This document shows positions 2,261 to 63,600 of a stretch of DNA of 64,000 bases, in pieces. The position numbers and the translations under genes are program-made. Position 1 is the first letter of the stretch; the number at the start of each line of letters is the position of its first letter. Source of the DNA: Halichondria panicea (taxonomy: Eukaryota > Porifera > Demospongiae > Suberitida > Halichondriidae); contig NC_087388.1 of assembly GCF_963675165.1 (NCBI RefSeq), positions 4,035,047-4,099,046 on the forward strand, written 5' to 3'. The notes beneath the pieces are model-generated. The model was not told the DNA's origin. It saw only the letters and a list, made by a program, of their open reading frames with translations, and made no database searches.

Positions 2261-2727
2261 TGTAAGCATATTTACTCCGTAAAATCACCGTTAAATCACA
2301 AAGAACTCCGTGTCATAGGTCTATTCTTTGCAAGTTTAGATTAGGCTTAGCTAGAGTGTGAGGAGCTGTCTTGTGCGAAGGAAGAAGGAGCATCACTCTT
2401 ATGAAAGAACAGACCTAGGTTCTCAAGTTTCTGCAATCAGTTGGCTACCTTTGATTGACTACACAATTTAATACAAGCGCTTGATTAGACCATTGATTGC
2501 CAGATACACTTGTTAGAGTCTATCCTCAGACTCTGGCCATCGATCTCTTGTATACTATGCACAGGGGTGTCCACAAGTGGCTGGGCCTGGGATGTATTGT
2601 CAAGGTGAGCGATATAAATCAATAATACCCTTTCATCATTGGAAATTGTACACTATAGCCTATATAGCCCCAATCCTTGGTATCTGGATTAAGATATGAC
2701 ATTACGGCACTGGAACTGGTGTTGTGT

Positions 2728-2776
2728 TAGCCTCCTTCACCGGCCTTCAAGGAAGTGCGGCCTGGGATCGAGGCTA
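2728..2776. mobile_element. 49-bp minimal MULE-like copy
   Basis: It begins TAGCCTCCTTCACCGGCC and ends GGCCTGGGATCGAGGCTA, with little besides the two ends. The flanks are GTGTTGTGT and GTTTTGTGT, an 8/9 match to a 9-bp target duplication. It is nested inside the 2-kb element. Confidence 0.7.
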
Positions 2777-3415
2777 GTTTTGTGTGGACCATCAATGTGA
2801 GTTAACAAAATGTATAGTGGAATGGTGAATTTAAGTTCATACTAATTTGTATACAGGAGTAAAATGGAACCTTCCCCTCCAACCCCTGTCGTACTCCTCC
2901 TAGCTGATGTGTGTGAACTCATTGAAAGAGGATGCCCCAGTGCCACTCGTATCCTTCCCAAGGGGCCGATCTTATAGAACTACCTGCACTAAAACTACTG
3001 ACGTGGAATGGCTCTTTCAACACTTATGGTTGCTATCCTGACCAGTGACGTCAGGATTCTACAGTTTCTTGATGCACTGTGAACACACAATCTTTGTTAT
3101 GCCACCTGAAGGCTTAGCAGGCATATCCAACGCAGAAGTTTTTCTGGAAGCTCTTGTTTGAGATCTTCGCTTCTAAACATCTGCATTTATTATGGACGCA
3201 GTACTACTCTACAGAGTATTAACTTCTAGTGTCATTATATCATTATATCACTGTATTTTTAGCCAACTGTTGAACTGAAGATTTTACAGTACATAGCATT
3301 ACTCTTGATACTTACCAGTTTCGGTCACGCCCAGATACAATCAATACCAGGCCGAGGAGGCGACTTAGCGTTCAATTGGAGACAGATCGGCCTGGGATCG
3401 AGGCTAAATCAGCCC

Positions 3416-6478: not shown

Positions 6479-8620
6479 TTAAGCACTAGCTATTTCACAC
6501 TTTCTCGGTGCACCAAACCCTCCCACCACAATCAGTTCGTTCCCAGGGAGAACAGCAGCGAGGCATAATGATCGAGGTGTTGATATTTGACTAACAACAG
6601 TCCATGATGTCATGTTGAGCTGAATTATGTCCTTAGTGTTATCTCGATTGGAGTCCAGCCCACCCACTGCCAGCAGGTGGCCATTGACGGTAACTAGAAA
6701 AGACCTGCTAACTGGCAAGTGAGCAATTTTCTCCCATATAGCTGAGCTTGGCTGGGACTGAGTTAGTTGTCTTAATAAGCACATGTATACTGAATATTTC
6801 TCTTGATCATCTCTAGCTCGTGGATGTATATATACATAGCCTCCACAGATCGTTGTTGATAGTTCATCGGTTGGCACAGGTAGTGAGCTAGCAATAGACC
6901 ATTGCATGTTAGCAGTGTTTAATATTTCGACAGTAGTTAAACTTTTTGCATAAAAATATCCCCCAGCCACTACAAGTGTGTTGTTAGCGTACACAGTTCC
7001 AGGTACCCTCCGTCTAGTTGGCATGGGAGGGAAGTGTTCAATCCATTTGTTGTTAATATAGCTGTAGAGTTTATTGCTATAGAATTGTGTGTCTGATCTT
7101 CCCCCCACAGTTGTGAGCATGTTATCAGCACTGACAAGAGTGACATGGTTGTTAGGGCAAGGTGGCAACTTGTGCCACTTATTGTTGCTGAACTCATAAA
7201 CAGCTTTATTTTCATTATTAAAGTATGCCTTGTCTGATGATCCATGCCTCATATCATCAGGTGCATCAGGTAGTGACTCTAGTTTCATTGTAGCTTGAGC
7301 TTGTATTTCATCTTGCAGTGCGACTTGATGCATTTGAGTCGATAAATCATAAATCACCTCGTTCTTGCTTGCCAACGTTTGTCTCAATTGAGTCACTTTT
7401 CTGTCTCGTTGATTGATGGCTTGTTGGAGGGCAGCAGTGTTCTCATCACTTGATTGCAACTCTTGGTTGAGTCTCCTCAGCTGTCTCTCCCTCGCTTCAG
7501 CCTCATGTTGAAGGGTTTGAATTTCTTGTGTTGCTTGGCCTAGTCTTGTAGTGAATTGACCATTTTCAATGTCTTTTGTATGCAACTCCTCGTTTTTGTA
7601 CGTGATTGTCTCTTGATTTTCTGTTATAATATCTTGATTTGCTCGTATTTGTTCATCTTTAGTTGCAAGTTGCTCATCTTTCTCTCTGATTATCTGGAGC
7701 AGGTCTTGTTGGGAGCTTTCCTGGTACTTGCCTGTCCGTTTGAGAGCATCCAGTGTTTGGCAAAGCAGTTGGGAAGATGGTCTTTCAACATCTCTGTCTT
7801 TGAGGCAGTGATGCACAATCGGCAGTAGAGGGTGGGTGGGCTCAATCAGGCTGATGTGGGCTTGTCGTCTGTCCTGTTCTGGAATTGGCAACTTCGCTTC
7901 AACTATGTGAATTGGGCTTCGAGGATCAGGAATTTGAACGTTTACAAATCGATCTGTTGGCTTTGGAAACTGTCGAGTTGTGATCTGAACTATAAGCACA
8001 CCAAATGAGAAGTTGTCTAGTTTATCTGTGTACACTGGTGGTTCGTTTAGTGCCTCGGGTGACATGAAGGTTGGTGTTCCCGGGCATGTGGTCATTGTGG
8101 CTAGTCGGCCGGTGATGTTTATGTCTGTGAATTTGGACATTCCGAAATCAGTGACTTTGGCATGGCTGCCAGCAATCAGTAAGACATTGTTGCTGGAAAG
8201 GTCACGATGGATGATCCCATTAGAGTGGAGAAAGGCAAGTGCTTGAGCTATGTCATAGGCGAGGTTGACTTGGATGTGGTAGGGAATGTCTTCAGGTGAT
8301 GACTCCAGGAAGTGTGTCAGGCTCTCGTCCATGAGCTCCATGAGAAGAACTGGTGCATTTGTGTCGGGATCACGATAGGTCCCCAAGTACTGTACAATGT
8401 TGGGGTGGTTGATGCGACTCAGAAATGCGCACTCGGTTTCGAATCTTCTAAAGGGATGTCTATGTTCTTTGCCAGGATCAGGAGTAGTCATTTGGAAGAG
8501 CACTGGATACAGTAGTTTGGCAGCACAGATTAGCTCATCACACTTGGCTTTACACACTGCCCCGTAGGAGCCAGTACCAAGGGTATCAGTCTTGAAGAGT
8601 TGTACATTTCGGAATATATA
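6479..8620 (-). CDS. Protein kinase-coiled coil-Kelch repeat protein (5' exon missing)
   Basis: One long exon. The in-frame sequence begins at 8620, directly after an AG that ends an in-frame TAG, so an upstream exon must supply the start codon. The first ATG inside (8557) would lose the nucleotide loop. The kinase domain occupies roughly the first 290 residues. It has a glycine loop GTGSYGAV, the ATP lysine in CAAKLL, HRDLSSNN (catalytic loop), TDFGMSK (DFG) and MSPEAL (APE position). All key residues are present, so it should be active. The style fits the tyrosine-kinase-like (TKL) group. A charged, Gln-rich coiled coil (about 150 residues) follows, then at least four Kelch-type blades with VGG/VAGG strands (VVAGGYFY, LLAVGGLD, LIVVGGFG), probably a beta-propeller for partner binding. 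Cytosolic signalling is likely. Substrate and partner are unknown. Confidence 0.85.
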   Translation of the reverse strand, partial: YIFRNVQLFKTDTLGTGSYGAVCKAKCDELICAAKLLYPVLFQMTTPDPGKEHRHPFRRFETECAFLSRINHPNIVQYLGTYRDPDTNAPVLLMELMDESLTHFLESSPEDIPYHIQVNLAYDIAQALAFLHSNGIIHRDLSSNNVLLIAGSHAKVTDFGMSKFTDINITGRLATMTTCPGTPTFMSPEALNEPPVYTDKLDNFSFGVLIVQITTRQFPKPTDRFVNVQIPDPRSPIHIVEAKLPIPEQDRRQAHISLIEPTHPLLPIVHHCLKDRDVERPSSQLLCQTLDALKRTGKYQESSQQDLLQIIREKDEQLATKDEQIRANQDIITENQETITYKNEELHTKDIENGQFTTRLGQATQEIQTLQHEAEARERQLRRLNQELQSSDENTAALQQAINQRDRKVTQLRQTLASKNEVIYDLSTQMHQVALQDEIQAQATMKLESLPDAPDDMRHGSSDKAYFNNENKAVYEFSNNKWHKLPPCPNNHVTLVSADNMLTTVGGRSDTQFYSNKLYSYINNKWIEHFPPMPTRRRVPGTVYANNTLVVAGGYFYAKSLTTVEILNTANMQWSIASSLPVPTDELSTTICGGYVYIHPRARDDQEKYSVYMCLLRQLTQSQPSSAIWEKIAHLPVSRSFLVTVNGHLLAVGGLDSNRDNTKDIIQLNMTSWTVVSQISTPRSLCLAAVLPGNELIVVGGFGAPRKCEIASA

Positions 8621-16155: not shown

Positions 16156-16899
16156 TCACTTTCCAATGACAGTGTGGAAATATCCAGAGCTGACTCCGAA
16201 GATCCCATCTATAGTAGCTTCACATTGCTCCACTTTTTTCCCAGGCATCTTCTCAAATTCTCCTTGAACACATGGCTTTGGGCATCGGAAAATCTCATTG
16301 TTGGTGCTCACTCCAAATATGTCATTCGTTCCTGAAGCAGTCACGTATTTTAGCTTCTGACCAGGAATATGTCTCCAGCCACCAGCTGTTCCGTCCACTC
16401 GCATAGAGAACACATCGTTGTTCTTATTGACACCGTACACATATTTATGACCACCATCAATTTGCTTGAGCTTCCCGCCAACGCGAATCCATTTTCCAAG
16501 GCATGGTTTTCTGCACTTAAAGATATCATCGTTCTTAGTCACTCCCCAGATGTAACCATTTCCGGATGCCGATACGTGCTTTAGGCTACCACTGATACGT
16601 CGCCAACCACCAGTTCCATCTGCAGCCATCTTGAAGATTTGATTTGCTTTATTCACTCCCCACACTTCGTCATCTCCAACATCAATCTGCATGAGACTTC
16701 CACCAACTTTCACCCAATTTTTGCAGGGTCGTTCACATCGGGAAATTTGATCGTTTTTGTTGACGCCCCACAAGTAGGCCACGCCTGCTGAAATGTGCTT
16801 CAGGTTTCCTCCAACTGATAAGCAACAAGCACTCGAGGTGTACACCACAAGCATAAACAAAGCTAGTAGGGAAAATTTGAATGCCATGGCTTTCTCCAA
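16156..16899 (-). CDS. Secreted tectonin-repeat lectin
   Basis: Intronless 247-residue protein. An N-terminal signal peptide (hydrophobic FSLLALFMLVVYTSSACC) predicts secretion. The rest is built from about six tectonin repeats of ~35 residues, each with a GG(N/S)L(K/M).I..G...V(W/Y/F)GV..N..I(F/S) pattern (for example YLWGVNKNDQIS, YIWGVTKNDDIF, DIFGVSTNNEIF). This matches the six-bladed beta-propeller of tachylectin-1 and fish-egg lectin. Those proteins bind LPS or bacterial surface sugars, so innate recognition or egg/matrix binding is the likely role. Pairs of cysteines (RCERPC, KCRKPC, RCPKPC) recur in alternate repeats. A TATA-like TTAATATAAG lies about 30 bp upstream of the ATG in both tandem units, which would leave a very short 5' UTR. 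A second ATG four codons in is also possible as the start. Confidence 0.92.
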   Translation of the reverse strand: MEKAMAFKFSLLALFMLVVYTSSACCLSVGGNLKHISAGVAYLWGVNKNDQISRCERPCKNWVKVGGSLMQIDVGDDEVWGVNKANQIFKMAADGTGGWRRISGSLKHVSASGNGYIWGVTKNDDIFKCRKPCLGKWIRVGGKLKQIDGGHKYVYGVNKNNDVFSMRVDGTAGGWRHIPGQKLKYVTASGTNDIFGVSTNNEIFRCPKPCVQGEFEKMPGKKVEQCEATIDGIFGVSSGYFHTVIGK

Positions 16900-47751: not shown

Positions 47752-50700
47752 TCAAGTGTTACTATGTGTTATATACCATGCAGAAGATGGGTGTGCTCTG
47801 GTGTGCGGTCTCGAGCCTGAAGGGGGAATTTGTTTAGCTTTCTTAATCCCTGTTGAGCCTACATCCTCATTCATTCTGATATTTTCTAGAATTTTTCTTT
47901 TTCCATCTCGTACCTGGTAGTACGTGGCCGTGTACGAGGTAATGCGATCAATACCAGATCTATTACTTAATGTGGCCTTAAAAGTGACATCAAACTTACC
48001 CTGTATACCTCCCTTACATATGCCTTTTCTGTTTCTTTCCTGATGCCACTCCTTTTTGTTGTATTCGGAGGTAGAGGGAATAGCATTCCCATAATAACAT
48101 GGATCACAACATTTAGGGGAGAAAAACCTGCCCCCTGCATTGACACCAGCATTTGCAGGTGCTACATGGAATGTCTCCAACTTCTTTTCGCTCCGCATAC
48201 CATATATTGGGCCGGTTCTAGCTCGTTCATTTGTAAATTCCATCCCTGTAATTGTACCCCTAAATAACACGACTCGTCCAGCCTCATTATAGACTGTCTC
48301 ATTCTTCACCTGTATTCCATTGCGTTGTTTATATTGTCTATAGAGTATATTGTCTTCCTGATATTCGTCGTAAGTTTCTGGTAACATATCATGAGCCTTT
48401 TTTCTGGATCTTTTCTTAACACCTTGACCAGCAGAATTGCCAGGATTTTCCCCCCCAGGATTTCCCCCCAGTAGGCGAACACGTTGATCAGCAGAATTGC
48501 CAGGATTTCCCCCAGTACGATGGCTCTGGTGAGGCGCTGCCTGTTGGCCATTTTCATTGCTACCAATAGAACCATGTGAACTTGTCACTGGTTGAGCTGG
48601 GGCTTGCATCATGACAGTTTGGTGGTTTGAGGGGTCACAAATACTTTCTTTAAATGTATCTCTTTGTTTTTGATGGTCTTTGAGGATTTCATCTTCTTCT
48701 GCAGGAAGAGGCTGTTGTTGGGAAAGTGTAGCTGGTACAGTCACATCTGCTAGCTCCGGGCGAATATTGTTTTGACTAAGGTTTTTCACAACTTGAGATG
48801 GAGACTTACCAAATGTCTTTTTTACACACTTTGAGACAGCCTTCTTTGAAGCCTTTCCAACTGTTTTGACACCTTTTTTGACAACTTTTTCGACACCTTT
48901 ATTCAGTGTAGATTGCAATTTCTTTTCTATTGGCTCTATATAGGCTCGTTCAATATCAGCTAATTCACTTTCAATTAAACTTTCTCTGGCAGGCAATACG
49001 TTCCGATCAGTGGTGTTTAAAGGCTCCGGACAATCTTGCAATACAGTAGGCGTATTATTTCTACCAACCAGGTGATTGGGCCTTCCACTGCCACTCCGAG
49101 AGCCTTTCTGTCTTTCACTGTTAGAGTGCCTTCTTTGGCCAGAGTGCTCAGCAGTGTCTTGGGTTTTATTGGATTTGCAATCTAGTACTTTAACCACAGC
49201 TGACACTAGGTGACCCACTTTCACAACTTTTTTCACTGCGGAGTATATTATTTTTGCTATTCGAACAGCTTTTGCAGCATTTCCGGCCACTTTGGCCCAT
49301 TTGGAGTTAGATCTGCTTAAGTTAGCAGCTAGTGTATCAAAGCTGTTACTCAAGCAAGTGCTTATTTCGGATACAATCCGATCAACATGATCTGGTAAAA
49401 GTTGTTGTAGAGCTTTTACTAAATGCTTTTGGATATCTTGACACTTTTCATGGAAAGCATCATCAGTATCGGCTACATCGTACAATCTGGTTACCCGTTT
49501 GTGTAATTCATCTCTCATCTTTGATAATATGTTCTTCTGAATGAATTCCACAACACCAGCAACTATTTGCTGTTGTGCTTCAGCCAAAACTATGTCTGAA
49601 ATTATTCCTGTCACAGCACTCACAGCAAACTGGCCAGCAGCTTTAGCCATGACTTTACCAAATGCTGCCAGTGTAGAAGGTGAGCCAAGTTTAGCAGCTG
49701 TACTGCCACCAGATGCCAAAAAACCAATGCCAGCAGTTGCTACAGTGATGGCAATGCTAATAGCTTTCTGTATTGCCCAGTCTTTCCAACTAAATGTCCC
49801 AGTTAGGCCTGCCATAGTAGCGTACATCATGTCATTTATTCCTTCGGCAATCAGTCCAGCCCCTATTGAAGCACCTACTCCGGCTGTGAATACGACTAGA
49901 GCTGCCCCAGCTATGACTTGAGCAAGACCAATCATGGCGCATGCAAAAGCGTTCCAATCCCAGCACCATCCTTTGTCAGCTTGTTCCACTGTTAAAAAGT
50001 TATCCATATGCCATGTGGTGAAGAACTCTAGTGCTTGAGGAATTTCATCAGGGCGAGGATCAAGTTCACTGAAATCAACAAAACTAACTTTCATGTCTCG
50101 TTCAAATTTACAGACTTCACCTTGTAAGCCTTGCAGGACGTTTAGGATGAAACTAGTCTGTGCCTCGGTGTATTCTTTACCTAATGCTTTCTCTGCCAGT
50201 GACCTCAATTCTTCATCCTTGATGCCATATTTGGTTGTAACAGCCAGTTGGCCAGACTTTAAGATTCCATATTCCTGAAGAAACACATGAATTTTTTTCG
50301 CTTCCAGTGATTTCTTCCCATAAGGTAGCATGTGTTCGTAGAGATAACGACTTTCATTCTCACAGCAGTGCTTTAACACTTCTGCCAAGAATGCACGTAA
50401 CTTAAGGTGACCACCATCCCTGGAGATTTCAATATCTTTATAGACACCCAGTTCTAGAGTAAGTATACACTCGCAAGCTGTTTCAATGAGTAAACCTCTC
50501 CTAGTTTCAACAACAAGGCAGTTATCCTTCAAGTGTGAAATTAGATTTATGTATTCCTGTTTCTGCAGGGTGGGATCATGAGATGGTAGTACGATTTGAC
50601 AATCAGTTTCCTGAGATTTGAACTGATTTACAAACTTTTTCCAGTTCTCGTTGTGTTCATCACTAGTCAGTTTTGCCTCTACTTGTTTAACTTCGATAAC

Positions 50701-53700
50701 TACAACCTCTTCAGTCTGCCCCATTAGCGGGCTAAGAACACTCCAAAGATCTTCACTGCTGAAAATAAACTTTGAGATATCACTTTCGATGATACTGGTA
50801 CTTGTGGGGACAAGACTCATTAAATGGTCTGCAATGTGAGGATCAACCTCTTTGTTAAGAAGATGCTTTAGTTTATCCCCTTTTTTCCAGCACTTCCTTA
50901 CTTTATGGTGGTATATAAATCCGTGTGCAACCAACTTGCCATAGATTTCCCCTGACTGCTTTTCAGTTATATTCTCACTAGTTAAAGTAGATTCTTTAAC
51001 AAATGAAGACTCATCAACAGTGCCTCCCAACAGTGTCTCAATGATGTTTAAGTGCAATCCAATAACTTTGATCTTTTCTTCTGTTTGCTGTAAATAACGG
51101 TTTTCACTGCAGTCAACATGTTGGCTAACATCAAGAAGATCGGATAACAAGCGACCGATTTCTCCATTAGACATCCAACTTCTACGCAACTCATTCAGAT
51201 GAGATCGTGCAATTTTCAAAAAGTGGCAAACCCTTTTTTTATTTTCAACTGTTGCTTTATGGTTAAGTTTAACGAAGCAATAGCAAGCTGCCATTGCAGG
51301 AAGTCCTGTTATATCACCTTTAAGTATCGCTCTTTCAAAACAGGTTTGAGCAGCTGAGTACATTTCCTTTTTATTGTTCTTGAAAGATCTCTTTTCAGGC
51401 TTTTGGATCTCTTTGAGAAAAGCTTGGCCTAGTTGGATGTAGTCTTCTGGTATTGTGAAAAATGGTGAGTCAGAAGCTGTTGAAGGAACTGACAGCTCTT
51501 CATAACGAAACTCTTTGTTAAAGAGATCTTGAACTTGCTGTCTTTTGTCTTGGGTATCTGCAGCTTGAATTTGTGTGCGCATTGAGTCTAACCAATAAGC
51601 CCAGCGATCAGTTACGATTGTAATACAAGCTCTTTTGCACTCTTCAAGCTTCATAATCGCAATATTAAACAATTTAGCACTGCTAACGTTTACAGCTGAA
51701 GCAAATGCTTTTCTATATTCCTGGAATAGTAAGTACATTTTCTCTTCGAGATCAAGTTTGGGCAAGCCTTCACTTAACAGTACACCAAGTCGATCAGTCT
51801 CTGCTTGGTCTCTTTTGATCTTCTCCATTTCTACTATTACTTCAGTTGCAGTTTCAAGAGAGCCAAAAGTTTCAATTTCATCTTGATACTCTCTGTAATC
51901 AATTGGAACAACTAAACAGCCACTTCCAGCTTGTCCGGCACGAGCAGCTCTCCCAAATGCTTGCTCTTCTATTCTTGTATTCTCGGGCAGGAAACTTAGT
52001 ATCACATGCAAACCTTTAGGAACTTGTTCTTCTTTGATAATGATGTCTGTTCCACGTCCTCCCTTATTAGTGGCCAATACAACTTGTCCAGGTTGAGCAC
52101 CACCTTGTTTGAATACATTTTCAATATCATCGCCATCGCGGGCATAATCGATGATATGCTCTTCAGCAACTACAGCATGAGTTAGTAGGTAGTTTTTCAA
52201 CAGCTGTAGCTGACGAATGTTCTCACAAATGACCAATATAGGTTGGCTTGCAGTCTTAGAAGATATCTCGGTTTGTATTTGTTTAAACCACTCTTCCTCA
52301 TTTGAGGCACAATGAGACTTGGCTTGTGAGTATCTCTTGACTCGGTTAGTTGGAAGCTCCACTGTTCTGATTGTGTAAACAGTTTCAAGCAACCTACGTG
52401 ATGAAACAGAACCAAGGGTGCCGGTCAGACCATAGAGTTGCTCGTTATATTTTTTGAAGAACCTCTTGTTTGAGATGAAAACAGCTTTTAGACTCTCAGT
52501 TGAAAGAGGGAGCCGATACTTGAGCTCAAGAAACTGTGACAAACCGTTACTCCATTTCATATTGTACTGCTCAGTGCCTGTTTGTTTATCGATGGGGAAA
52601 ATGTGCCTGCTATCAGATTGCTCTTCTCGTTTGTGATCGAGGATAAATTGATCGTTTGCGTCCATAAGCCGGGCTTGGTATGCACTTCGAACCCACGCTT
52701 TCATTTTGTGCCGACAGAATCCCTTCAAGTACTCGGGGACAGAGATTGTTTCGTTCTCAATCAAAGCAATTAAATGATCTGCTAGCTCATTCAAGATTGT
52801 TTCAAAGGAAGTATCTCTGTTCTCACTTTGTGGGTTAAGGTTTAGAATCGAACACCAAATTGTTACGAAGAGAGATTCTAAGTGTTTCAAAGCTGGGCTC
52901 TCGTGAGACAGATACAGCATGTGCCGACCTTTATCAAGGAACATGCTATCAACTTCATCTACGAGCAGACAATTTCTTTCGGAATTCAAATAGCGAGCAC
53001 TGAAGTTCGTACCACCTGGATTGTTTTCTTCAGTTAGAACATCCCTTTGGAATGAACCAACCTCACCATACACTATGTGTGAATTGTAAGCCTGTTGATT
53101 GGTGTCATCATCCTCTCCACAGTTAACAGCTGCCACAAGTCCAAGAATATCGAAGAATTTCTCGCACTTATCTCTTCCATCTTTAGCCAGATCTCTATTG
53201 CTCGACACAACATCAACCTTACAACCAAGCAAGGCTTTAGCAGCTGCAAGCATTCCAACAATCAGTGTCTTCCCTTCCCCTGTCTTAACCTGTTGAAGGA
53301 GGCCTTTGTTGCTTGTTTGCAAAAAGAGCAAAAGAGACACAATTTGTGTGTTGTAGGGTACTTGTATTGAAGTTGTCGATGTAGCTAACATCCAAGCTAG
53401 TACTATGTGTACAACAAACTGCACGCGGTGTTTCTTAAGCCATTCATCTTTCTCATCAACAGAAATACATTTCTGAAGCGTTTTAAAAAAATCTCTCAGT
53501 TGTTGCTTACTAGGCAAGGGTTGCTTAGAACAATGTTCAATACAGTCAATGGTTTCCACTGCTTCTCCTTTGAATTGCTCTAGCTCACGAGGGCTGATGG
53601 CAAAATCACCACTTTTCATTTGATATTCAATGAGGTCGATTATCTCACTAACTCTATGTGGCTTACTACTTCGCTTGTTACTTTCTATTTCCCTCAGCGC

Positions 53701-56700
53701 AGGTAACCAATCAAGATAGTCACAATCTACGATGATAGAGCTAATCTCCTGCAGAGTAACTCTCTTGTAATACAAATCTTCAAATAAAGTCATCAAAAAC
53801 CCGTTATCTTTAGCACCACTGCTGATATACTTGCTTCTCATAGTGTACAAGAGAGACATAAGTTCTAAGTGAGGTATACCAGCTTCAAGCCGAACTCGAT
53901 TCATCAAGTACATTGTTTTTTGTTTATCAGCTTTTGTGATGTCAGCCCAGTGATCAATATATTGCTTGAAATGTATCACCGCTAGTTCTTTCTCCCAAAG
54001 TGGCATTGAAGTATTACATAACGAAGTGGAGACTTCCGAACACACTTCAACAAAAGGTAGCCATTCTATAATAGTGATAAGCTGAGCAAGGGTAAGTATA
54101 CCAACTGTCGAGTTTGGATCAGCTTTATGATACTGATCATTTGTGAAGACATTGTATAGAATTTGCAAAAGCTTGGTATCAATACACATCAACTTGTCGT
54201 GAAGGTAAATGCAGTTTGACTTAAAATGATCAGTGCAGACTCGTACAAAGTTGAATGCAAGCAAGTTTGAGAGCCATTGGCCGCTGGGAACTTGCCGTAG
54301 AATAGAGACTACTGGCAATAGATCTGGAGTAACTTTAATAACTTGGATGATGGTAAGCAAGTTTGACAGTAGATCAGTACAATCACTTTGATTTGTCAAT
54401 GGCAAATTTTCTAAGAGCTCAGCTTGCAACAATTTTGTGAGCACAGCACCTATTAAAAGCAAATCATGGATGGTCTCCCAGGCATATTGTTGGAACGCTG
54501 TTTCTGATTTGCTTACTAAGCATGAGCAAAAGGCATGCAGGACTAACTCTCTCCGTGAGTCGTGTCTGAAGAATTTGTCAGAGAGAATTACTTGAAAGAA
54601 TTCAATAATTTCGTGCAGCCTTTTACTAACCCATGAGAGTAGGATTATTGAGACGTGTGAGTAAAACTCAGGAGAATACAGTATATTCTCCAGACATGAT
54701 TCGTTTGAAAGACTGCAATTGACAACACATTCAATTTTCAAAAATTCTTCATGTAGATCTTCTATTGAACGAATCATGCTCATTAGTGTATAAAGATTTT
54801 GTTCATCTTCTTCCATATCTTTTATCACTTCCAGGAACACTTCAATTCTGTGGTATTTAGTGAAGTTTGGGATTCTATTTAACAATTGTTCTGTTTCAGA
54901 GCTAAGTGGTTTGTTTAAGTTTGGACTTTTCTCGATAATGATTTTTAATCCTTCCGATATATTGCTATACATTTGAAACCGAGGGTGAGCACTCTCAAAC
55001 GTTAAGTAATTGTTGACATTTTCAGACTCACGAAGGTATGCAAATGCTGAACAAAGGCACTTTGCAGTGTGAACTGAGAAATTATCCACCTTCAAAACAT
55101 TCTCCCAAAGTTGCAAGTAAGTGTCATCTATGTTCACATGACCCTTGTGTTTCCTCTTTCTACCCTCAATCAGCAGAAACTGTAAGTACGATTCCATTCC
55201 CAACAAATAGACATCTTCAACAACTATGCTTTCACAGGCTGGCAACAAAATCTCCTCTAATAGTTGTTTCATCATCTGAAAACATTGCAGGTCACAAGGA
55301 AGTGAGTTAACACACTCTTTAACAAACTGTTGACGAATCAATCTCACTAGCTTTGGCACATCTTTGTCATAAAGGACAGTGGGAGAATCTTGTATGGCAG
55401 CTTTGAGTGCTGTGTTAAGCTGAGAAGTTGGCAATGACGCTTGATATAGCTGATCATACTTATTCAGTAGGTTAGAAACCAATAGAAGATTTTTAATAGG
55501 ATTCTCGTTTGTATTGGTTACCAGTGGTAGCGAGTAGGTAAACTCAGTATCCACTATAGATTCACATTTTTCAATATTGTACACAATAGCTGGCTTTGAG
55601 GGGTGCTTGATAACGCAAGCAGCAACAGAAGATTGTATCTGTGAGATATCATCTTCAGTAAGTTCAAGAACTTCAAGTGTTTTCACTATTTCTAGAGCTT
55701 TGTCCCTACATAAACATTGAATTATAACGACTTTGTCCTTTAAGTGTTCATCCATTAATTTATTTTTGACATCTTCTATACAAATCTGTTCACACAAGCA
55801 TGTTCGTAAATCGATACATTCAATGCATACATTCGCGCTATGTTCATCTACTAGAACTTGGCCACAAAAGTCAACTTTAAAGTGGGTGTGAAACTCGTTT
55901 TCATATCCAAGTCTTCCAAGAAGACAAGCAGCTTCTTCCTGGTTCAAAATTATTTGCTCTCCTTCTTTCTCAAGTAATTCTGTCATATTTCTTCTGAGAG
56001 CATTTGCAATGGTGTCATCAGACACCTCTCTGTATTGTAACGAATGTGGCTGATTGATTGACAATGTACAGGACTCCCACTGACCACTGCTTGGGTAGAG
56101 AACTAACGTGTGGCAATCGATATTATCCTCCTCATTAGGTTCCTGTGTTTGGAAAACAACCTTGTGTTGTGGTGGAAGTCTCTCGAGTACAACATGAACT
56201 TTTCGTTCTGTTTGAATACTTAAATCAGGGTAGATCCACTTTACTAAAGTACTCAGGCAAGAAGACGGCTCAAATCGATCGCTAAGTGACAGCTTATGAA
56301 GTAGAAACTGCTTGCACATTTCTGTTCTCTCCAGATTGTACAACAAAGAAAAATATTCAAGGTTCGTTGAAGTACAAACCAATTCTTTGATGTCTAGTAA
56401 CTTTTGCATTAACTGTAACTGTGAAACACCTTGCTTGAGTGTACAGGACAATTCTACCAATACTTCACTGGTAGCGATTGCTCTACCTTTTTCGTCAGAG
56501 ATTGTTTGCAGTCGCTTTTGAATACACAACACCCAATACTTTAGAAGAGGTGATGGCTGTGAGAGGGGGTAGTGACCTAGTACCCTGAAAACGTTTCTGA
56601 AATTGTCTGCTCTTGTTCGGATGGAATCTGTTGTGCATGTGCTTCGCTCCTTTTTCAGCTGCACGCAGAAAAGCTCCAAGTTCAAAACAGACATTGAAAC

Positions 56701-59700
56701 ATCCATCTGTAAGAGTGAATGATCACACTTTTCAATGTCATCGGGACAAGTTTGGTCTATAATACTTCTGAGGATCTGTAAAAAGCTCTTGACTGTCGTG
56801 TTCAAGGAGTAATTTCCCTGTGACGTTTTATCAATAAGAGATACAATTTTTTCTAGAGCTGTTATGTTCAAACCGTCTTCATTTACTCGCTGAAAAAAGT
56901 CATTAATATTGGTATCGGCTTCAAAGGAGTGGAAATAGCGTTGTAGAGCATTAAACAACCAAGACAAAAGATTGAGAATTTCATCTGGAAACTTTGATAC
57001 AATCCTTTTTGAGCTGGTGGCACACACAGACATTGCTGCTGTCAGTGTAGGTGCACTAGGAAATGCCTGAAATGCTGCATAAGCATCTTCAAACCGAACA
57101 CCAGGTACTGAAATCTGTGACTGTAAATCAGGCACTTGTATGCCAGTGGTGCTCTGGAAATATTGAGCTAGATTTACAAACATTGTGCTGATTATAGTAT
57201 ACACGGGAGAGGGCATAGTTTTTAATTTAGCTAACAAATCAGTGAATGCCTTTTGATTGTGCTGACAGTTGATTGGTAATGGGTGGATTTTTTCGATTAG
57301 AGATTGACTCGCTGCCACACAAGGTACCTTCTCAGAACCCTCTCTAATTTGCTTATCATCACAAAGCATTCGAAGTATGTCGCAAACCTGTACATAGAAT
57401 GCCCTAAGCCCATCCACTACTGTTTCTGAGCTAAGATGCTCAATGTAGCTATCATGTGATTCGGTGAAGCGTTTTAGGTGATATAAATGAATACTTGACA
57501 ACAGTTTGAAGAATTTCTTGGAGGATGGGATTTTGTTGAAATTATCGATGGCTTGTTTCACCTTCAATGATGCTGCATTGCAGAATGGCCTTGTGCTAAT
57601 CCAAGAAGCATCCAAAGGCAAAATGAGTAGATTTTCGCCAAGTAAGATTTTTTGGATGGTACTAAGTTCGTCACAAGATGTAGCCGTGATAACATCGTTA
57701 ACACATTGAGCATAGAACTTCTGAACATACTGAAATTGTTGAGTTTGATAATACTTTCCACCAACCACCAAATACGTCTTTCTGATTGCAATTAACAGTT
57801 TCAGTTTCCAAATACAGCATAGTTGTTCTTTGCAGCATGGAACAGACTTAGGTCCATAGTTGGTTCGTATCCAAGTCGCCATTTGAGAGTAGAGCATATT
57901 ATCACGTGGAATTGCTTGAATTTGGTTATTTTCAACCTCAACATCGTTCAATAAGGCCAGTAGTGACTTATCGTGGATTGATCGTCCTGAATAAGAGCCA
58001 ACATGGTAATACTGATATCGGTCACTACCTTGTTTGAGAATACGAAAGTAATCAGTAGCTTTGTGTGTTCTCATCAAGCTGGGGGGTCCATTTGAAATGA
58101 AAATTTCTCTTTCTGATATTTTCAACATTATCTCGTTTACAACAATGTCACTGCTGTCGCCAGACAAAAGTACCTCCACAGATAGGAGGCTTAAATACTT
58201 TCCTGCACAGGTCTTTAGTGAAGACAGATCAAGAATCGCTTTTGGGCTGTCCGTTTTTGCACCAAGATAACCCAATGTTTTATAGTGGCTTCTTTCCTCC
58301 ACATCTTTCATTAGTTGAGCTCGTTCTCGTCGCCTTTCTGTTGTAGTTTGCTGTTGCATACTCCTCTGTAGAGATGCAGATTGACTGTGAATGCGAGTGA
58401 TCCAAGCTTCACTGTTATTTCTTATCATCTCACTGTGTTTTATGACGGTGAAATTTTCTTCCACGGGTTCTCCGATTTTTTTTGCGAATGCACTCATGAA
58501 ACTGGCATGAGATTTAGCATTCCAATGTTGCAGAGATTGTCGACACTGTTCCTGCATAGAATGGAAGCAAGCACACTTATCAATCGCTTTGTTTTCGTTA
58601 GCTACAGCGTGATTCACTTTAACTTGACATTTTCTCCCGTCTTTATTCTTCCCTCTCCCACTACTACTAAAATCAGGGTGACTTCCAGCCTTCTCTGCAT
58701 ATGGTAGTGAAGTTCCATCCTCCTCGTAACATGCTCCAGACCCACGAAGTTTCGGAATAGCGGAGTGTGTTAATTCTCCCACGATAGTTGTTGTTTTCCT
58801 GCAATCTTTTCCGCTGAAGAAATTCCCCCACGTACCCCAGAAACCAGCATGTTTTGCATACGCTCCGTTGTCTTTGCCATGTCTTGTATGCTTTCCACCT
58901 TTACCCGACAGGCCTGGAATGCCTGACATTCCATCTTCGATTTTCTCTCGACTTTCTTGACAATTTTCATTGTTTTCAAGATCAATTAATTGAATTTTAC
59001 CGCTGATTCCTGATTTTCCAGGAGCTCCACCCATTCCAGCATCACCCCCTTGGCCTCCGTTTTCACCAAACGTTCCATAGTTAATAATAACTCTAGATTT
59101 ACAGGAATAATAGCCCCAGCCACTTTCAAATTTGGGATCATACCCGTCACGTCCTTCAGAGGAGGGGGACCAACCAGTTCCGCCATTGCCTCCATTTTGA
59201 CCATTCTCCCCTCGACTTCCATTGGCGGAAAGATTCCAATCATCGCGGCATAAGCTGCCACTAACCAACAAGATGTGACCACCAGGGTTTCCATAGCGAC
59301 CATTGTTCCCATCAATACCTGGCTTTCCGTCGTGGTTACTGTACTGGTTACCAGCCTCCCCAGATAAGGCAGTGTCTGGGAAATCATTATCTAATATAGA
59401 CAGTCCATCAGTGTTGATACTGACGCCATCCTTGTCTGTGGAAGAAGTTTTCGGTGAAATACAAGCAAAACTAATCCCTGGAAGTGTTATGTTGGCATCA
59501 GCATATACGACTGAGTCAGCAAAAAATCTAAGATGATCTCCTGGTTTTAGTCCCATTGAGTTTTTTTCCAGCCATTCTTTAAGGGATGCATTTGCTCCTG
59601 CAAAACTTCCAGCTACAAATTTCACGTTGAAGATTCGATAGTCATCCTCATGCTCATAAGAAGTAGTGTAGCGCTGTAGCATGGGCGAAAGCAGCGCACA

Positions 59701-60618
59701 TAAATGGTTTAGATACTCTTGCAAGTATGAATAGTGGCTTTTGTTTGAGTTAAGACACTCGTCCACTTGTATTCTAGTATCTAGTGAGATCAATTCTGGA
59801 TCGATGAATGACACTATTGTTCGGTATAATGAAATCTGTGATTGGTAAAGCTGATTTTTCTCACTTGTGTATTTGCTTGACTCTCCGTTACACTTTTTGT
59901 ATTGTTTATTGAGATCTTGTATCCGTTCGATAAAATCTTCAATTTTTTGCTGTTGGTTTTCTTCCAGTTGCTTTTGAAGGAAGCTATATGAAATTGTAGC
60001 TTGGTGTACATCTGTTTCGATTTGCTCCAACACTTCCATCACTCTGACACGAGAATCAATGAGATACAAGCAGAATGCTGTTACGCAATCAATGACCACC
60101 CTGTGAAAATCATCTGTGTCAAATATATCCTTCTTTTCCTTGAATAATTCTGATAAAGATCTGAGGAATTGACCGACAAGTTCTTTTGGAGAAGATTCAA
60201 AGTGTGCCGAGAAAAAGTCTAGAAATGTTTGCTCACTCGAACATTTCCCAATAATTTCAAAGTCATCTAGCAAGATAACCCGCATAGCTGTATCATCACC
60301 ATCTTCTTTGCTTTCAATATCGTCTTGGGATTGATTCAGATTACCAAAAAGTTGATTCTCAGACAAATGCCCATATCGATACTCCAAGAGCTGGTGAAAC
60401 AGATCACGGAATTCTAAGAGTGGACCATCTGCTGCAATTCCTTTGTCCAAGTTGAACACATCAATATCATCACCAGAGTCTCCAATAATCAAATCATCAG
60501 GTCTCAAAAAATGAAAGCGATCATTATAAGAAGTACTAGGTGACAAAACAGGTGGTTGCTTTGGAGATGATGGAAGCTTTGTGTTATACCCAGCCAAGCA
60601 AGTTTCCAGGAAAATTAC
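47752..60618 (-). CDS. Giant protein with SecA-like DEAD ATPase core
   Basis: One uninterrupted exon of ~4,290 codons. Numbering from the first listed codon (60597): coiled coil ~185-260; a collagen-like Gly-rich module ~415-560 (GKPGIDGNNG, GDAGMGGAPGKSG); a long helical region ~600-2400 without recognised domains; a SecA-type motor ~2420-2900 with VKTGEGKT (Walker A, ~2437), LLVDEVDSM (Walker B/DEVD, ~2546), GLTGTLG, PTNRVKR, ATNKGGRGTDI (~2846) and FGRAARAGQAGSG (~2885). These match SecA motifs GEGKT, DEVDS, GMTGT, ATNMAGRGTDI and GRSGRQGD. Then come more helical sequence, a hydrophobic Gly/Ala-rich segment ~3549-3640 (GLAQVIAGAALVVFTAGVGA, FSWKDWAIQKAISIAITVAT), a basic linker with GGNPG repeats ~4030, and a Cys/Tyr-containing C-terminal domain I cannot assign. 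No ATG starts the exon: an in-frame TAG ending in a splice-like AG precedes codon GTA at 60618, so a 5' exon is needed. ATPase activity is likely. Protein translocation is not implied. Confidence 0.85.
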   Translation of the reverse strand, partial: VIFLETCLAGYNTKLPSSPKQPPVLSPSTSYNDRFHFLRPDDLIIGDSGDDIDVFNLDKGIAADGPLLEFRDLFHQLLEYRYGHLSENQLFGNLNQSQDDIESKEDGDDTAMRVILLDDFEIIGKCSSEQTFLDFFSAHFESSPKELVGQFLRSLSELFKEKKDIFDTDDFHRVVIDCVTAFCLYLIDSRVRVMEVLEQIETDVHQATISYSFLQKQLEENQQQKIEDFIERIQDLNKQYKKCNGESSKYTSEKNQLYQSQISLYRTIVSFIDPELISLDTRIQVDECLNSNKSHYSYLQEYLNHLCALLSPMLQRYTTSYEHEDDYRIFNVKFVAGSFAGANASLKEWLEKNSMGLKPGDHLRFFADSVVYADANITLPGISFACISPKTSSTDKDGVSINTDGLSILDNDFPDTALSGEAGNQYSNHDGKPGIDGNNGRYGNPGGHILLVSGSLCRDDWNLSANGSRGENGQNGGNGGTGWSPSSEGRDGYDPKFESGWGYYSCKSRVIINYGTFGENGGQGGDAGMGGAPGKSGISGKIQLIDLENNENCQESREKIEDGMSGIPGLSGKGGKHTRHGKDNGAYAKHAGFWGTWGNFFSGKDCRKTTTIVGELTHSAIPKLRGSGACYEEDGTSLPYAEKAGSHPDFSSSGRGKNKDGRKCQVKVNHAVANENKAIDKCACFHSMQEQCRQSLQHWNAKSHASFMSAFAKKIGEPVEENFTVIKHSEMIRNNSEAWITRIHSQSASLQRSMQQQTTTERRRERAQLMKDVEERSHYKTLGYLGAKTDSPKAILDLSSLKTCAGKYLSLLSVEVLLSGDSSDIVVNEIMLKISEREIFISNGPPSLMRTHKATDYFRILKQGSDRYQYYHVGSYSGRSIHDKSLLALLNDVEVENNQIQAIPRDNMLYSQMATWIRTNYGPKSVPCCKEQLCCIWKLKLLIAIRKTYLVVGGKYYQTQQFQYVQKFYAQCVNDVITATSCDELSTIQKILLGENLLILPLDASWISTRPFCNAASLKVKQAIDNFNKIPSSKKFFKLLSSIHLYHLKRFTESHDSYIEHLSSETVVDGLRAFYVQVCDILRMLCDDKQIREGSEKVPCVAASQSLIEKIHPLPINCQHNQKAFTDLLAKLKTMPSPVYTIISTMFVNLAQYFQSTTGIQVPDLQSQISVPGVRFEDAYAAFQAFPSAPTLTAAMSVCATSSKRIVSKFPDEILNLLSWLFNALQRYFHSFEADTNINDFFQRVNEDGLNITALEKIVSLIDKTSQGNYSLNTTVKSFLQILRSIIDQTCPDDIEKCDHSLLQMDVSMSVLNLELFCVQLKKERSTCTTDSIRTRADNFRNVFRVLGHYPLSQPSPLLKYWVLCIQKRLQTISDEKGRAIATSEVLVELSCTLKQGVSQLQLMQKLLDIKELVCTSTNLEYFSLLYNLERTEMCKQFLLHKLSLSDRFEPSSCLSTLVKWIYPDLSIQTERKVHVVLERLPPQHKVVFQTQEPNEEDNIDCHTLVLYPSSGQWESCTLSINQPHSLQYREVSDDTIANALRRNMTELLEKEGEQIILNQEEAACLLGRLGYENEFHTHFKVDFCGQVLVDEHSANVCIECIDLRTCLCEQICIEDVKNKLMDEHLKDKVVIIQCLCRDKALEIVKTLEVLELTEDDISQIQSSVAACVIKHPSKPAIVYNIEKCESIVDTEFTYSLPLVTNTNENPIKNLLLVSNLLNKYDQLYQASLPTSQLNTALKAAIQDSPTVLYDKDVPKLVRLIRQQFVKECVNSLPCDLQCFQMMKQLLEEILLPACESIVVEDVYLLGMESYLQFLLIEGRKRKHKGHVNIDDTYLQLWENVLKVDNFSVHTAKCLCSAFAYLRESENVNNYLTFESAHPRFQMYSNISEGLKIIIEKSPNLNKPLSSETEQLLNRIPNFTKYHRIEVFLEVIKDMEEDEQNLYTLMSMIRSIEDLHEEFLKIECVVNCSLSNESCLENILYSPEFYSHVSIILLSWVSKRLHEIIEFFQVILSDKFFRHDSRRELVLHAFCSCLVSKSETAFQQYAWETIHDLLLIGAVLTKLLQAELLENLPLTNQSDCTDLLSNLLTIIQVIKVTPDLLPVVSILRQVPSGQWLSNLLAFNFVRVCTDHFKSNCIYLHDKLMCIDTKLLQILYNVFTNDQYHKADPNSTVGILTLAQLITIIEWLPFVEVCSEVSTSLCNTSMPLWEKELAVIHFKQYIDHWADITKADKQKTMYLMNRVRLEAGIPHLELMSLLYTMRSKYISSGAKDNGFLMTLFEDLYYKRVTLQEISSIIVDCDYLDWLPALREIESNKRSSKPHRVSEIIDLIEYQMKSGDFAISPRELEQFKGEAVETIDCIEHCSKQPLPSKQQLRDFFKTLQKCISVDEKDEWLKKHRVQFVVHIVLAWMLATSTTSIQVPYNTQIVSLLLFLQTSNKGLLQQVKTGEGKTLIVGMLAAAKALLGCKVDVVSSNRDLAKDGRDKCEKFFDILGLVAAVNCGEDDDTNQQAYNSHIVYGEVGSFQRDVLTEENNPGGTNFSARYLNSERNCLLVDEVDSMFLDKGRHMLYLSHESPALKHLESLFVTIWCSILNLNPQSENRDTSFETILNELADHLIALIENETISVPEYLKGFCRHKMKAWVRSAYQARLMDANDQFILDHKREEQSDSRHIFPIDKQTGTEQYNMKWSNGLSQFLELKYRLPLSTESLKAVFISNKRFFKKYNEQLYGLTGTLGSVSSRRLLETVYTIRTVELPTNRVKRYSQAKSHCASNEEEWFKQIQTEISSKTASQPILVICENIRQLQLLKNYLLTHAVVAEEHIIDYARDGDDIENVFKQGGAQPGQVVLATNKGGRGTDIIIKEEQVPKGLHVILSFLPENTRIEEQAFGRAARAGQAGSGCLVVPIDYREYQDEIETFGSLETATEVIVEMEKIKRDQAETDRLGVLLSEGLPKLDLEEKMYLLFQEYRKAFASAVNVSSAKLFNIAIMKLEECKRACITIVTDRWAYWLDSMRTQIQAADTQDKRQQVQDLFNKEFRYEELSVPSTASDSPFFTIPEDYIQLGQAFLKEIQKPEKRSFKNNKKEMYSAAQTCFERAILKGDITGLPAMAACYCFVKLNHKATVENKKRVCHFLKIARSHLNELRRSWMSNGEIGRLLSDLLDVSQHVDCSENRYLQQTEEKIKVIGLHLNIIETLLGGTVDESSFVKESTLTSENITEKQSGEIYGKLVAHGFIYHHKVRKCWKKGDKLKHLLNKEVDPHIADHLMSLVPTSTSIIESDISKFIFSSEDLWSVLSPLMGQTEEVVVIEVKQVEAKLTSDEHNENWKKFVNQFKSQETDCQIVLPSHDPTLQKQEYINLISHLKDNCLVVETRRGLLIETACECILTLELGVYKDIEISRDGGHLKLRAFLAEVLKHCCENESRYLYEHMLPYGKKSLEAKKIHVFLQEYGILKSGQLAVTTKYGIKDEELRSLAEKALGKEYTEAQTSFILNVLQGLQGEVCKFERDMKVSFVDFSELDPRPDEIPQALEFFTTWHMDNFLTVEQADKGWCWDWNAFACAMIGLAQVIAGAALVVFTAGVGASIGAGLIAEGINDMMYATMAGLTGTFSWKDWAIQKAISIAITVATAGIGFLASGGSTAAKLGSPSTLAAFGKVMAKAAGQFAVSAVTGIISDIVLAEAQQQIVAGVVEFIQKNILSKMRDELHKRVTRLYDVADTDDAFHEKCQDIQKHLVKALQQLLPDHVDRIVSEISTCLSNSFDTLAANLSRSNSKWAKVAGNAAKAVRIAKIIYSAVKKVVKVGHLVSAVVKVLDCKSNKTQDTAEHSGQRRHSNSERQKGSRSGSGRPNHLVGRNNTPTVLQDCPEPLNTTDRNVLPARESLIESELADIERAYIEPIEKKLQSTLNKGVEKVVKKGVKTVGKASKKAVSKCVKKTFGKSPSQVVKNLSQNNIRPELADVTVPATLSQQQPLPAEEDEILKDHQKQRDTFKESICDPSNHQTVMMQAPAQPVTSSHGSIGSNENGQQAAPHQSHRTGGNPGNSADQRVRLLGGNPGGENPGNSAGQGVKKRSRKKAHDMLPETYDEYQEDNILYRQYKQRNGIQVKNETVYNEAGRVVLFRGTITGMEFTNERARTGPIYGMRSEKKLETFHVAPANAGVNAGGRFFSPKCCDPCYYGNAIPSTSEYNKKEWHQERNRKGICKGGIQGKFDVTFKATLSNRSGIDRITSYTATYYQVRDGKRKILENIRMNEDVGSTGIKKAKQIPPSGSRPHTRAHPSSAWYITHSNT

Positions 60619-63600
60619 CTATAAACAAATACATGAAACTATAATTGTTACTAATAAAATCAACCAGTACGTAGCACATGAATCATTACGTAGGAAAAAA
60701 TATTTGCAATATGCACGTAGGATTGGCCACTGAAGCACCAAAAAGTGTGAAAACAAGTAAGCAGGAGAGAGGTCAATCCGTCCCAACATCATTCACATAC
60801 ACATTTTCTACCACAGGCCATTGTGCATGACATATAAACAGTCGAATGTTTACAACGGAAATGTAATTGAAACTTTTCTCTCTCATGCACGACATGCATG
60901 CGCTAAAGCAATACATCATAGAAACTAGGCGACGCCTCAACTAACAATGCAACGAGTATAATTATGCCTGGTGTTTGAACTGCATGGTAGAAGAATATAT
61001 CTGATAAATTTAAGTGCATGCATGCATGGACTAATTCGCATAATTATATAATCTAGACTGTTCATGAAGTTGTGAGGGGGATTGTATAGAAGCGTTGTGT
61101 ATAATTGTGTCACCAGGAGCTTAGAAGCTTTCAAAGGCAGTTTTTTGGGTGTTGTATTATCGTTTGGTCTATCTATAGTACCTTCTACAAGGAGAGGCTG
61201 TGACTACAGTACACATGCATATTATTTATTCCCTCATTTATTAAGTAGCTGGGCATTGTAAAATCAAGCCACTTGGCTTTAGGTTGGTCAGTAATATTTA
61301 TTTTTATCTTTAGTAAGCAGGTTTTGATATCAGAATGTTGTGTACCCATTTAGAAGGTTATAATAAGCACGGTATATAATCAATGTCTCTTTGTATTCAT
61401 TGTTCATTGTATCGGCACAGTATTTTAGGACAGTACATCTCCATCATGATTCTGACTCTATATACTGGAATACTGAAACTATACAGACAGAACTCCTCTC
61501 AAGAAGTTGTCTGCTTTTTACTGCTTGCGGGGGCTCACTAACTATATATTGCTGCTACCTTGTTGTGACAGTTCCCCTATATATCCATTGCTAATACATG
61601 TATGTAGCTCAGTAGCTAGTTTATAACCTAGCTAGAAAGAAACATGGGCTGGAGGAAATAAAGGAAGCGTTGACCGAAACGCGAATCGTCAATGCTTTTT
61701 ACATTGCATTTCCAATCCCCATAAGCTCCCTTCTTATATCTATAATAATGGTCACAGTCACATCCATCTCATAAGTGGCCACGAGGTATTGTGACACTGC
61801 TGTGCACGCGAGGTCATTTTTAGCGATGGAATTGTAAGTCGAGCCTGAGAGGTATTTGCCTCATGAAAGCAATCTGAGCAAGCCAAATGCCATGTTGTAG
61901 TCAACCGGGTGCAGAATGTTCTGGAGATGACTGTATTTGGTCAGTCAGACAAAATGCGATGCAAATGACAATAATTATGGATCTCAGTAGCCTTTCCCTG
62001 CAAAGATATATAACAGTTTGAAGATGAGTGAAATACGTGAAACATTGCTACACCAATCCTGGCCTAATTACAACCACTAGTTGTAATAATAATTATAATA
62101 TACAATATATGACATTCGTGTATAACAGTATGGTTATAAGTTGAATTGTATACAATTATCATATTTACAGCTTGAAGTTGCGTAGTTGTTCATGGGTATT
62201 ACACTCAAACTTTTTTCATCAAAGCTATGAAACAATACTGTAAAAGACTATAATAATTCTTTGTATATTAATGCATGATGTGACTCAACAAACCTTTTTC
62301 CGTAGTACTTGCTCCTCATATTCAGGTAGAGATGGATCTGGACTTGAACCTAGACCTGAATCCTGTTGGAGTTCTGCTTTTCTCCATTGAGTCAGTTTTA
62401 TCTGTATAATTATAGGATGCAAACTTGGCTCATCAATCTGGTTATAGGTTCAAGCTGGTTTCGATGCTGTAATTCCTATATAGTTTGAAGATACTTGAAA
62501 GAGCTCTTTTCTAATTAATAACTCCAGTATCACTAGAAAAAAAAGCCAAAATTTTGTTTGCCAAGTGAATCTTTGCCTATAAATTATAAGTACAGCTAAC
62601 TGATACATAATTATATACTGCATGGGTTCAATCGTAGAGTATTATACAGCACATGGTAGAGCAATTTTTTTGTCTGTATTATGGTTCATGGTGCATGCTC
62701 AGTCAGCAATGATCTCTACCCATCCCTACTTATATCAGAGCTGTATAATATATATGGCCGCTGCAATGGTTGCCTCATAAAACAGTTATCATTCGGCTTT
62801 CCCTGTTTGCTTGTTTCCATGCATTTTGGTGCTTTCTAGGCCTGCATGGCCAATCCTAAAAACTTTTATATCGCAAATGTGTTTGGTCTAGAATCATACA
62901 CAGACCTGAGGCACATGGGGGCCACTGGTTATAGTATAGTCAGTCAGTCATGTGTTACGTTTGTTTGTTTGTTTGTTAGTAAATCTGCTCACCTGCATGC
63001 TAAAGTGCTGCGTTTACAGCACGGATAGCCTCAGGCTCAACATAAGTTAGTTGTGGCAGATCAGTTTTCACATAAAAGCTTTGTTGTCGAATAAAAACGA
63101 GCAAAAACTATAATAAGACTTATTTTAGACAGATCACTAATTGCATTCCATTGTACAGCCACCATCTTGCACACTAGCCTTGTCCCCAGGCTGATTTGAA
63201 GTGTTGTTACTTGGAAGCTTGCTGGCTATAATTATAGAGCCATACCTACTAGTAGATGTGTGCGGCTTTTATTCGAGGTACTTTCTTACACATGCGCACC
63301 ACATGAAACCATGCATGCATATGGAGCTGTGAATTGGTTTACATGAATGTGAAGACTCCATGCAGGCTTCTTTGCTGACTCTATTGTATCAGTGCATGCA
63401 ATGCATGGCCTATATAAGCACGGTAATTATACCGTTTCAAAGCTACCACAGCTTAATTTGTGTATAGGTGTACACCAGTAAAAAAAGAATTTCGCCTTCT
63501 GTTAGTTCCCTGTGGCCGTTAATAATTATCATCATGATACATGATGGTTAACGACCACCTCCAATCAGCAACCATAATATTATAATAATTATGCCATAAA

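Follow-up and report, generated by a model that had tools for sequence, protein, structure and literature searches.

Giant proteins joining a SecA-like motor core to a conserved hydrophobic hairpin in a sponge nuclear genome

Introduction

SecA is generally regarded as a protein of bacteria and plastids. In the portions of the sources available to us, SecA domains of phage WO are described as nearer to those of invertebrates than to those of bacteria (PMC5062602; mentioned in PMC9203015), SecA-like modules are reported in effectors of Amoebophilus (PMC3482391), and giant multidomain toxins of actinobacteria are stated to contain a SecA-like ATPase domain (PMC8195603). The full-text literature, in a search that left most subscription papers outside its reach, gave no account of SecA giants in sponges or of a layout that joins SecA to a hairpin, and the word SecA is absent from the available main text of a survey of prokaryotic genes in Amphimedon (PMC4784904). 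Here we describe a 64,000-nucleotide stretch of the genome of the sponge Halichondria panicea (contig NC_087388.1, positions 4,035,047 to 4,099,046; hereafter the window), in which one very long reading frame encodes a giant protein (P0001) with a SecA-like core. The frame had been singled out in a first-pass annotation made from the sequence letters.

Results

The frame of P0001 occupies 47752..60618 on the minus strand, as do all features of this gene given below, and spans 4,288 codons between stops. In 40 simulated 64-kb windows of matching dinucleotide composition, at most 174 codons ran without a stop, which supports the earlier view that the uninterrupted 12.9-kb frame is real. Its G+C content is 0.403, against 0.395 in the remaining window.

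Near the middle of the chain lies a SecA-like translocase core (residues ~2380-3046; 51481..53481). Pfam SecA_DEAD (PF07517) matches 52414..53511 with 103.2 bits (E 2e-29, cut-off 24.6), and P-loop_SecA (PF21090) matches the second lobe at 52030..52305 with 35.3 bits (cut-off 27). The motor motifs comprise the Walker A sequence VKTGEGKT (53266..53289), the Walker B sequence DEVD (52948..52959), ATNKGGRGTDI (52042..52074) and GRAARAGQ (51931..51954), the last with both arginines kept. Among 126 aligned giants, GEGK[ST] and DExD are present in all, TNxxGRGT in 122 and GRxxRxG in 123. The profile scores and the conservation of these motifs bear out the intact SecA-type motor that the first-pass annotation had recognized.

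An AlphaFold model of the core, with a predicted local distance difference test score (pLDDT) of 84.3, superposes 609 residues (model 1-667) on substrate-engaged SecA (6itc_A) at 3.9 Å. The model includes a 56-residue helix behind the second lobe, and the alignment reaches residue 773 of 6itc_A. Foldseek ranks 1-36 are all SecA, at identities of ~16-26%, and for most SecA chains the matches run past the helicase lobes. In the model the SecA fold is kept beyond these lobes, and the predicted core is that of SecA, not of the unrelated helicase family that had been considered as an alternative outcome. The scores of the curated NCBIfam SecA models are not reached, the best match attaining 159.1 of 862 bits (a subfamily model) and the best equivalog 143.6 of 814. 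In PHROGs an unnamed family covers the core (E 3e-32) and the other matches are at chance level; in a viral structure library, the 50 matches listed include other helicases and giant-virus proteins, none named SecA.

The core is followed, after about 500 residues, by a hydrophobic hairpin module (residues ~3545-3700; 49519..49986), recognized by BLAST, profile and alignment, with hydropathy peaks at 3556-3574 and 3619-3620 and the pattern W.W.AFAVAMLGLAQ..G...EGI.D...G.FSWKDY..KAIS. Its hydropathy suggests a membrane-inserting module. The hairpin is present in 123 of 129 rows selected by their SecA core, in which the window protein is counted twice (122 by BLAST, with P0076 added by a 36-row profile); neither method found it in P0019, P0039, P0052, P0111 and two fragments. 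It is carried by each of the four relatives that were added afterwards, and the profile matches none of four canonical SecAs. It does match a plasmid gene of Legionella geestiana (8.5e-28) and the large plasmid gene of Megaera (8.7e-24). A database search with the hairpin part alone, for which only proteins of ~2,360-7,500 residues were eligible, returned 26 matches, all with PF07517, and every match that bears an organism name is from an animal. The module matches no Pfam family and no solved structure convincingly (best E 0.83). A SecA core with a downstream hairpin in one giant protein is thus well supported as the predicted layout that defines this family, and the hairpin offers a simple marker of its members.

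Prokaryote genomes were also scanned with one narrow hairpin DNA pattern, which the Wolbachia and plasmid subtypes would escape. This gave 17 stretches, of which the one confirmed lies in a frame read as a LacI-type regulator and is a false positive. In viral contigs, 48 stretches were obtained and none was confirmed. A lone weak hairpin match (L035, G000:C12:630122-630313; E 7e-6) stands at a place where no SecA match is listed.

Among the grounds for rejecting its proposal, the first-pass annotation had named a lack of homologues in related sponges together with absent expression; homologues of the SecA giant do exist, in rotifers, insects, a cnidarian, mussels, medaka and Wolbachia as well as on Megaera and Legionella plasmids. 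Two trees were built, one of 77 rows and one of 56 rows, the second without a long-branch Legionella row and 20 others. The giants separate from the four canonical SecAs with full support in both. The window copy falls in a 14-row clade (support 100) that includes no named bacterium and is allied with rotifer and environmental sequences; "sponge clade" is used here as a working label for rows P0002-P0021, which carry no organism names. The Wolbachia sequences are nested with those of bees and Artemia in an arthropod clade, far from the clade of the window copy. The trees do not tell where the family arose. Transfer at some time, in either direction, appears likely because related giants are present in intracellular bacteria. 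A direct bacterial origin of the sponge lineage, which had been raised earlier, finds no such backing: the named hairpin matches are all animal, and in prokaryotes the narrow DNA pattern yielded only its false positive.

Within the arthropod clade, the P0107/P0081 pair, from an Osmia bee and from Wolbachia, shares 76% identity along the tail, and the Artemia protein P0121 stands beside Wolbachia in the tree; this closeness may reflect recent transfer or contamination. In medaka (Oryzias latipes), the 2,381-residue protein P0122 combines a SecA core with the hairpin. When the core was compared with phages, 19 records matched, all below 60% identity; the best 15 of the 19, at 23.7-26.3%, are annotated as SecA or unannotated. 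Plasmids gave 121 records, the best 10 being Megaera at 34.6%, Legionella geestiana at 28.2% and others at 26.7-27.6%. The large Megaera plasmid gene has a SecA core as well (30%, 2e-70). On the plasmid of Megaera polyxenophila (L039), beside a recombinase, stand a 15.7-kb SecA-like gene that has the hairpin and, behind it, a 4.8-kb SecA-like gene that lacks it. The 13.8-kb plasmid of Legionella geestiana carries an 8.8-kb SecA-hairpin gene (L040:4499-13342) annotated as hypothetical.

The sponge genome has at least seven SecA_DEAD loci, a count that is a lower bound. Three are arrayed on the window's contig, C12: the window copy, C12c and C12a. C12c is an open frame of 4,273 codons; the frame of C12a is broken into two overlapping open pieces of 1,821 and 2,239 codons (G000:C12:4000686-4012825; L009, L010). 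A second, deeply separate class comprises the open frames C2 (2,458 codons) and C16 (2,365 codons) together with C1, which belongs to this class but is broken into 1,739 and 644 codons. C7 is in pieces, owing to introns or to decay. In the trees C2, C1 and C16 form a separate lineage, and the C12a core groups with P0019, so the duplication that gave rise to C12a is old. A long lysine run lies close to the end of C12a.

C12c shares 81% identity with the window copy, at a ratio of nonsynonymous to synonymous substitution (dN/dS) of 0.41 (Nei-Gojobori, 4,188 codons), in agreement with the selection that had been read from the unbroken frame. Within the SecA core (residues 2401-3000, taken as four blocks of 150 codons) the ratio is 0.13-0.36; it rises to 0.93 and 0.71 in the final two blocks, where 46 and 62 columns are gapped. 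In residues 1651-1800 of P0001 (55219-55668) dS between the two copies is 0.03, against 0.28 overall, perhaps through gene conversion. Both copies recur in other database records (P0002, 99.2%; P0003, 99.8%), which may or may not be independent of this assembly. These two closest copies resemble each other almost only within the coding frame, which gives no sign of the mobile-element carriage that had been suggested, terminal repeats not having been searched for.

The first in-frame ATG is residue 112 of the stop-to-stop frame. Directly 5' of the frame lies a probable splice acceptor, TTTGTTTATAG (60619..60629, minus strand), whose junction with GTA coincides exactly with the frame start; the start codon would be in an upstream exon. 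At the matching place C12c has ATATTATAG followed by GTA, and the long DNA similarity between the two copies stops 6 bases upstream of the frame, with only short aligned blocks beyond. Six relatives (P0008, P0010, P0013, P0018, P0020 and P0021) have a Q two residues before a conserved FLE/K-x-CL, which is what a CAG acceptor would give, the acceptor having been read by eye. A conserved block of ~89 bases upstream of the frame holds no clear coding exon 1. Because no ATG precedes residue 112, the frame opens at an acceptor and the similarity to C12c ends 6 bases upstream, the frame is likely a single, very large exon preceded by at least one other. This probable structure speaks against the single-exon gene of the first-pass annotation and against its protein of 4,281 residues from a TTG, which is not the real start.

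Toward the other end of the protein lies a fast-evolving C-terminal tip (47860..48420), of a type common to C12c and P0004, which coincides with the high dN/dS and many gaps of the last blocks. In its own genome this type is found at two loci. When a database was searched with the P0004 tip, only P0004 and P0002 came back; that search was not exhaustive, since it missed P0003, which has the C12c tip. Among relatives, differing ends behind a common body agree with the modular C-terminus proposed earlier. The end of P0016 has a T5orf172/MUG113 domain above the Pfam cut-off, P0125 has Endonuclea_NS_2 above the cut-off near its end (P0028 has the same family below it), and the rotifer protein P0029 has Agro_virD5 above the cut-off near its end. 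P0006 and P0008 are 72-93% identical along the body and 40% identical in the last block, and P0118, from a distant clade, matches the end of P0008 (31%, 1e-11). Since that match is collinear, loss in P0006 of an old common tip is as possible as a swap; an error of gene prediction in P0006 is another option.

Three candidate identities of such ends were set aside. Profile comparison of the window tip with the nuclease-like end of P0028 gave a probability of 0.1%. The ends of P0005 and P0009 ("YHGTK") had been read by eye as an ADP-ribosyltransferase, and parts of P0118, P0124 and P0125 as an OTU protease; neither reading had profile support.

At the N-terminus, a conserved module (residues ~67-760; 58339..60420) aligns to rotifer and environmental giants at ~21-28%. 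Its Gly-rich stretch (residues ~420-605; 58804..59361) has no collagen repeat. Pfam gives no collagen match at E<=1 and the longest perfect G-x-y run is 6 triplets, so the collagen-like N-terminus of the first-pass annotation was rejected.

The window (G000:C12:4035047-4099046) belongs to a genome of 131 Mb in 39 contigs, of which C12 has 6.76 Mb. C12 carries a match to Wnt, a family found in none of 14 control genomes. Three places with Wnt matches, together with three matches to nuclear receptors, fit a sponge without proving one; a weak innexin match (27.4 bits, cut-off 25) is at odds with a sponge. The locus is animal and nuclear, because C12 carries Wnt and the neighbourhood holds Tectonin and NACHT-WD40 genes; the contig is not the bacterial contaminant that had been entertained.

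The short exons ascribed to neighbouring genes do not extend to all of them, as a kinase-Kelch frame at 6479-8557 of the window runs to 692 codons. A Tectonin gene is found at 16156-16899 of the window, with a second copy, by DNA similarity, at G000:C12:4033581-4034354, and tandem duplications occur within the window at ~9.4-19.3 kb. An NWD1-like NACHT-WD40 gene of the STAND type (G000:C12:4104735-4108883; L014:2-3883) is convergent with the 3' end of C12c.

Discussion

These comparisons show an animal nuclear family whose predicted proteins combine an N-terminal module, a SecA core, a hairpin and a fast-changing tip. An animal thus keeps, under selection, SecA-fold proteins tied to a hairpin that has no Pfam or structure match.

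The layout suggests a membrane-translocation effector with a SecA motor and variable tips. Taken as a whole chain, microbial conflict included, this reading is tentative and falls somewhat short of probable. The SecA core, with its intact motifs and fold, would hydrolyse ATP. As its SecA fold suggests, it would move a polypeptide, most likely the protein's own C-terminal part, and the hairpin would sit in the membrane through or into which that polypeptide is pushed. The tip would be the payload, to judge from its position, its variability and the enzymatic ends of relatives. The distribution of the family points to conflict of the animal with microbes in or on its cells; such a setting is likely because the core-plus-hairpin layout occurs in intracellular bacteria and the tip changes fastest. 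The variable, partly enzymatic tails give some support to the effector delivery proposed in the first-pass annotation, although delivery itself is something we infer. A bolder version, which we regard as doubtful, is a self-contained ATP-driven injector that unites a SecA motor, its own hairpin and exchangeable enzymatic payloads, a eukaryotic counterpart of polymorphic toxins needing no separate secretion machine. If SecA giants do move polypeptides, they would constitute an unrecognised animal protein-translocation machine, possibly used against intracellular bacteria or exchanged with them.

Several observations weigh against translocation of a C-terminal payload. In P0001 neither the preprotein cross-linking domain (PF01043) nor the helical scaffold/wing has a Pfam match at E<=1; PF01043 matches below the cut-off are seen in P0028, P0122, P0124 and P0125. 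The window tip belongs to no known family in Pfam, NCBIfam or PDB, its model (pLDDT 43) is too poor for a fold search, and its high dN/dS may reflect relaxed constraint. Most sponge-clade relatives have tails that are short or carry no identified domain, and the tails of insect, cnidarian and Wolbachia relatives are alike over their full length and not polymorphic. Extra domains also occur at the N-terminus of relatives (UCH in P0095, ILEI in P0028 and P0030), so that variability would not be confined to the "payload" end.

The giant could instead be a resident animal ATPase, such as an unfoldase, a membrane remodeller or an innate immune effector, in which the SecA fold persists without delivery of a payload, its tail being loosely constrained or an adaptor. 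A body with dN/dS below 1, the conservation of the tail among insect, cnidarian and Wolbachia relatives, and NACHT-WD40 and Tectonin genes in the same cluster are consistent with such a role; the nuclease-type tips of some relatives and a hairpin conserved in 123 of 129 rows argue against it, and we consider it somewhat unlikely. That the protein is a nucleic-acid helicase descended from a SecA-like ancestor is quite improbable, as the SecA structure matches mostly extend past the lobes and SecA fills Foldseek ranks 1-36.

A selfish or effector gene that spreads laterally, passing between animals and their intracellular bacteria or phages and persisting through its own toxicity, would accord with the related giants on Megaera and Legionella plasmids, with Wolbachia sequences nested among those of bee and Artemia, and with phage WO SecA reported, in the available text of PMC5062602, as nearer to invertebrates than to bacteria. 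It is nonetheless distinctly unlikely, since the two closest copies share almost no flanking sequence and the window copy sits in a supported 14-row clade without a named bacterium. Contaminating symbiont DNA or a dead relic is scarcely credible. The broken frames of C12a and C1 and the pieces of C7 would fit it, but Wnt, absent from all 14 control genomes, lies on the same 6.76-Mb contig, and the window copy has a probable splice acceptor and a dN/dS of 0.41. Both copies, moreover, appear in other database records at 99.2 and 99.8%, although these may not be independent of the assembly.

Set beside bacterial SecA and SecA2, the sponge giant shares the motor motifs, both lobes and the fold beyond them; it differs in being ~5x longer, in its identity of ~16-26% in structure matches, in its extra hairpin and variable tip, and in scoring far below the equivalog cut-offs. 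With the eukaryotic association module of Wolbachia and phage WO the common ground is provided by Wolbachia giants that have the SecA core and the hairpin and presumably correspond to the published WO SecA-domain proteins. In contrast to the window copy, the Wolbachia copies fall in the arthropod clade and have a tail conserved with insects. The giant toxins of actinobacteria, likened here by description and not by sequence, have in common a SecA-like ATPase inside a giant protein. A comparison of the same descriptive kind links bacterial polymorphic toxins and Amoebophilus-type effectors to the sponge protein, which differs from them in being the product of an animal gene, with a tip of no known family, and shares with them a conserved body followed by a variable, partly enzymatic C-terminus.
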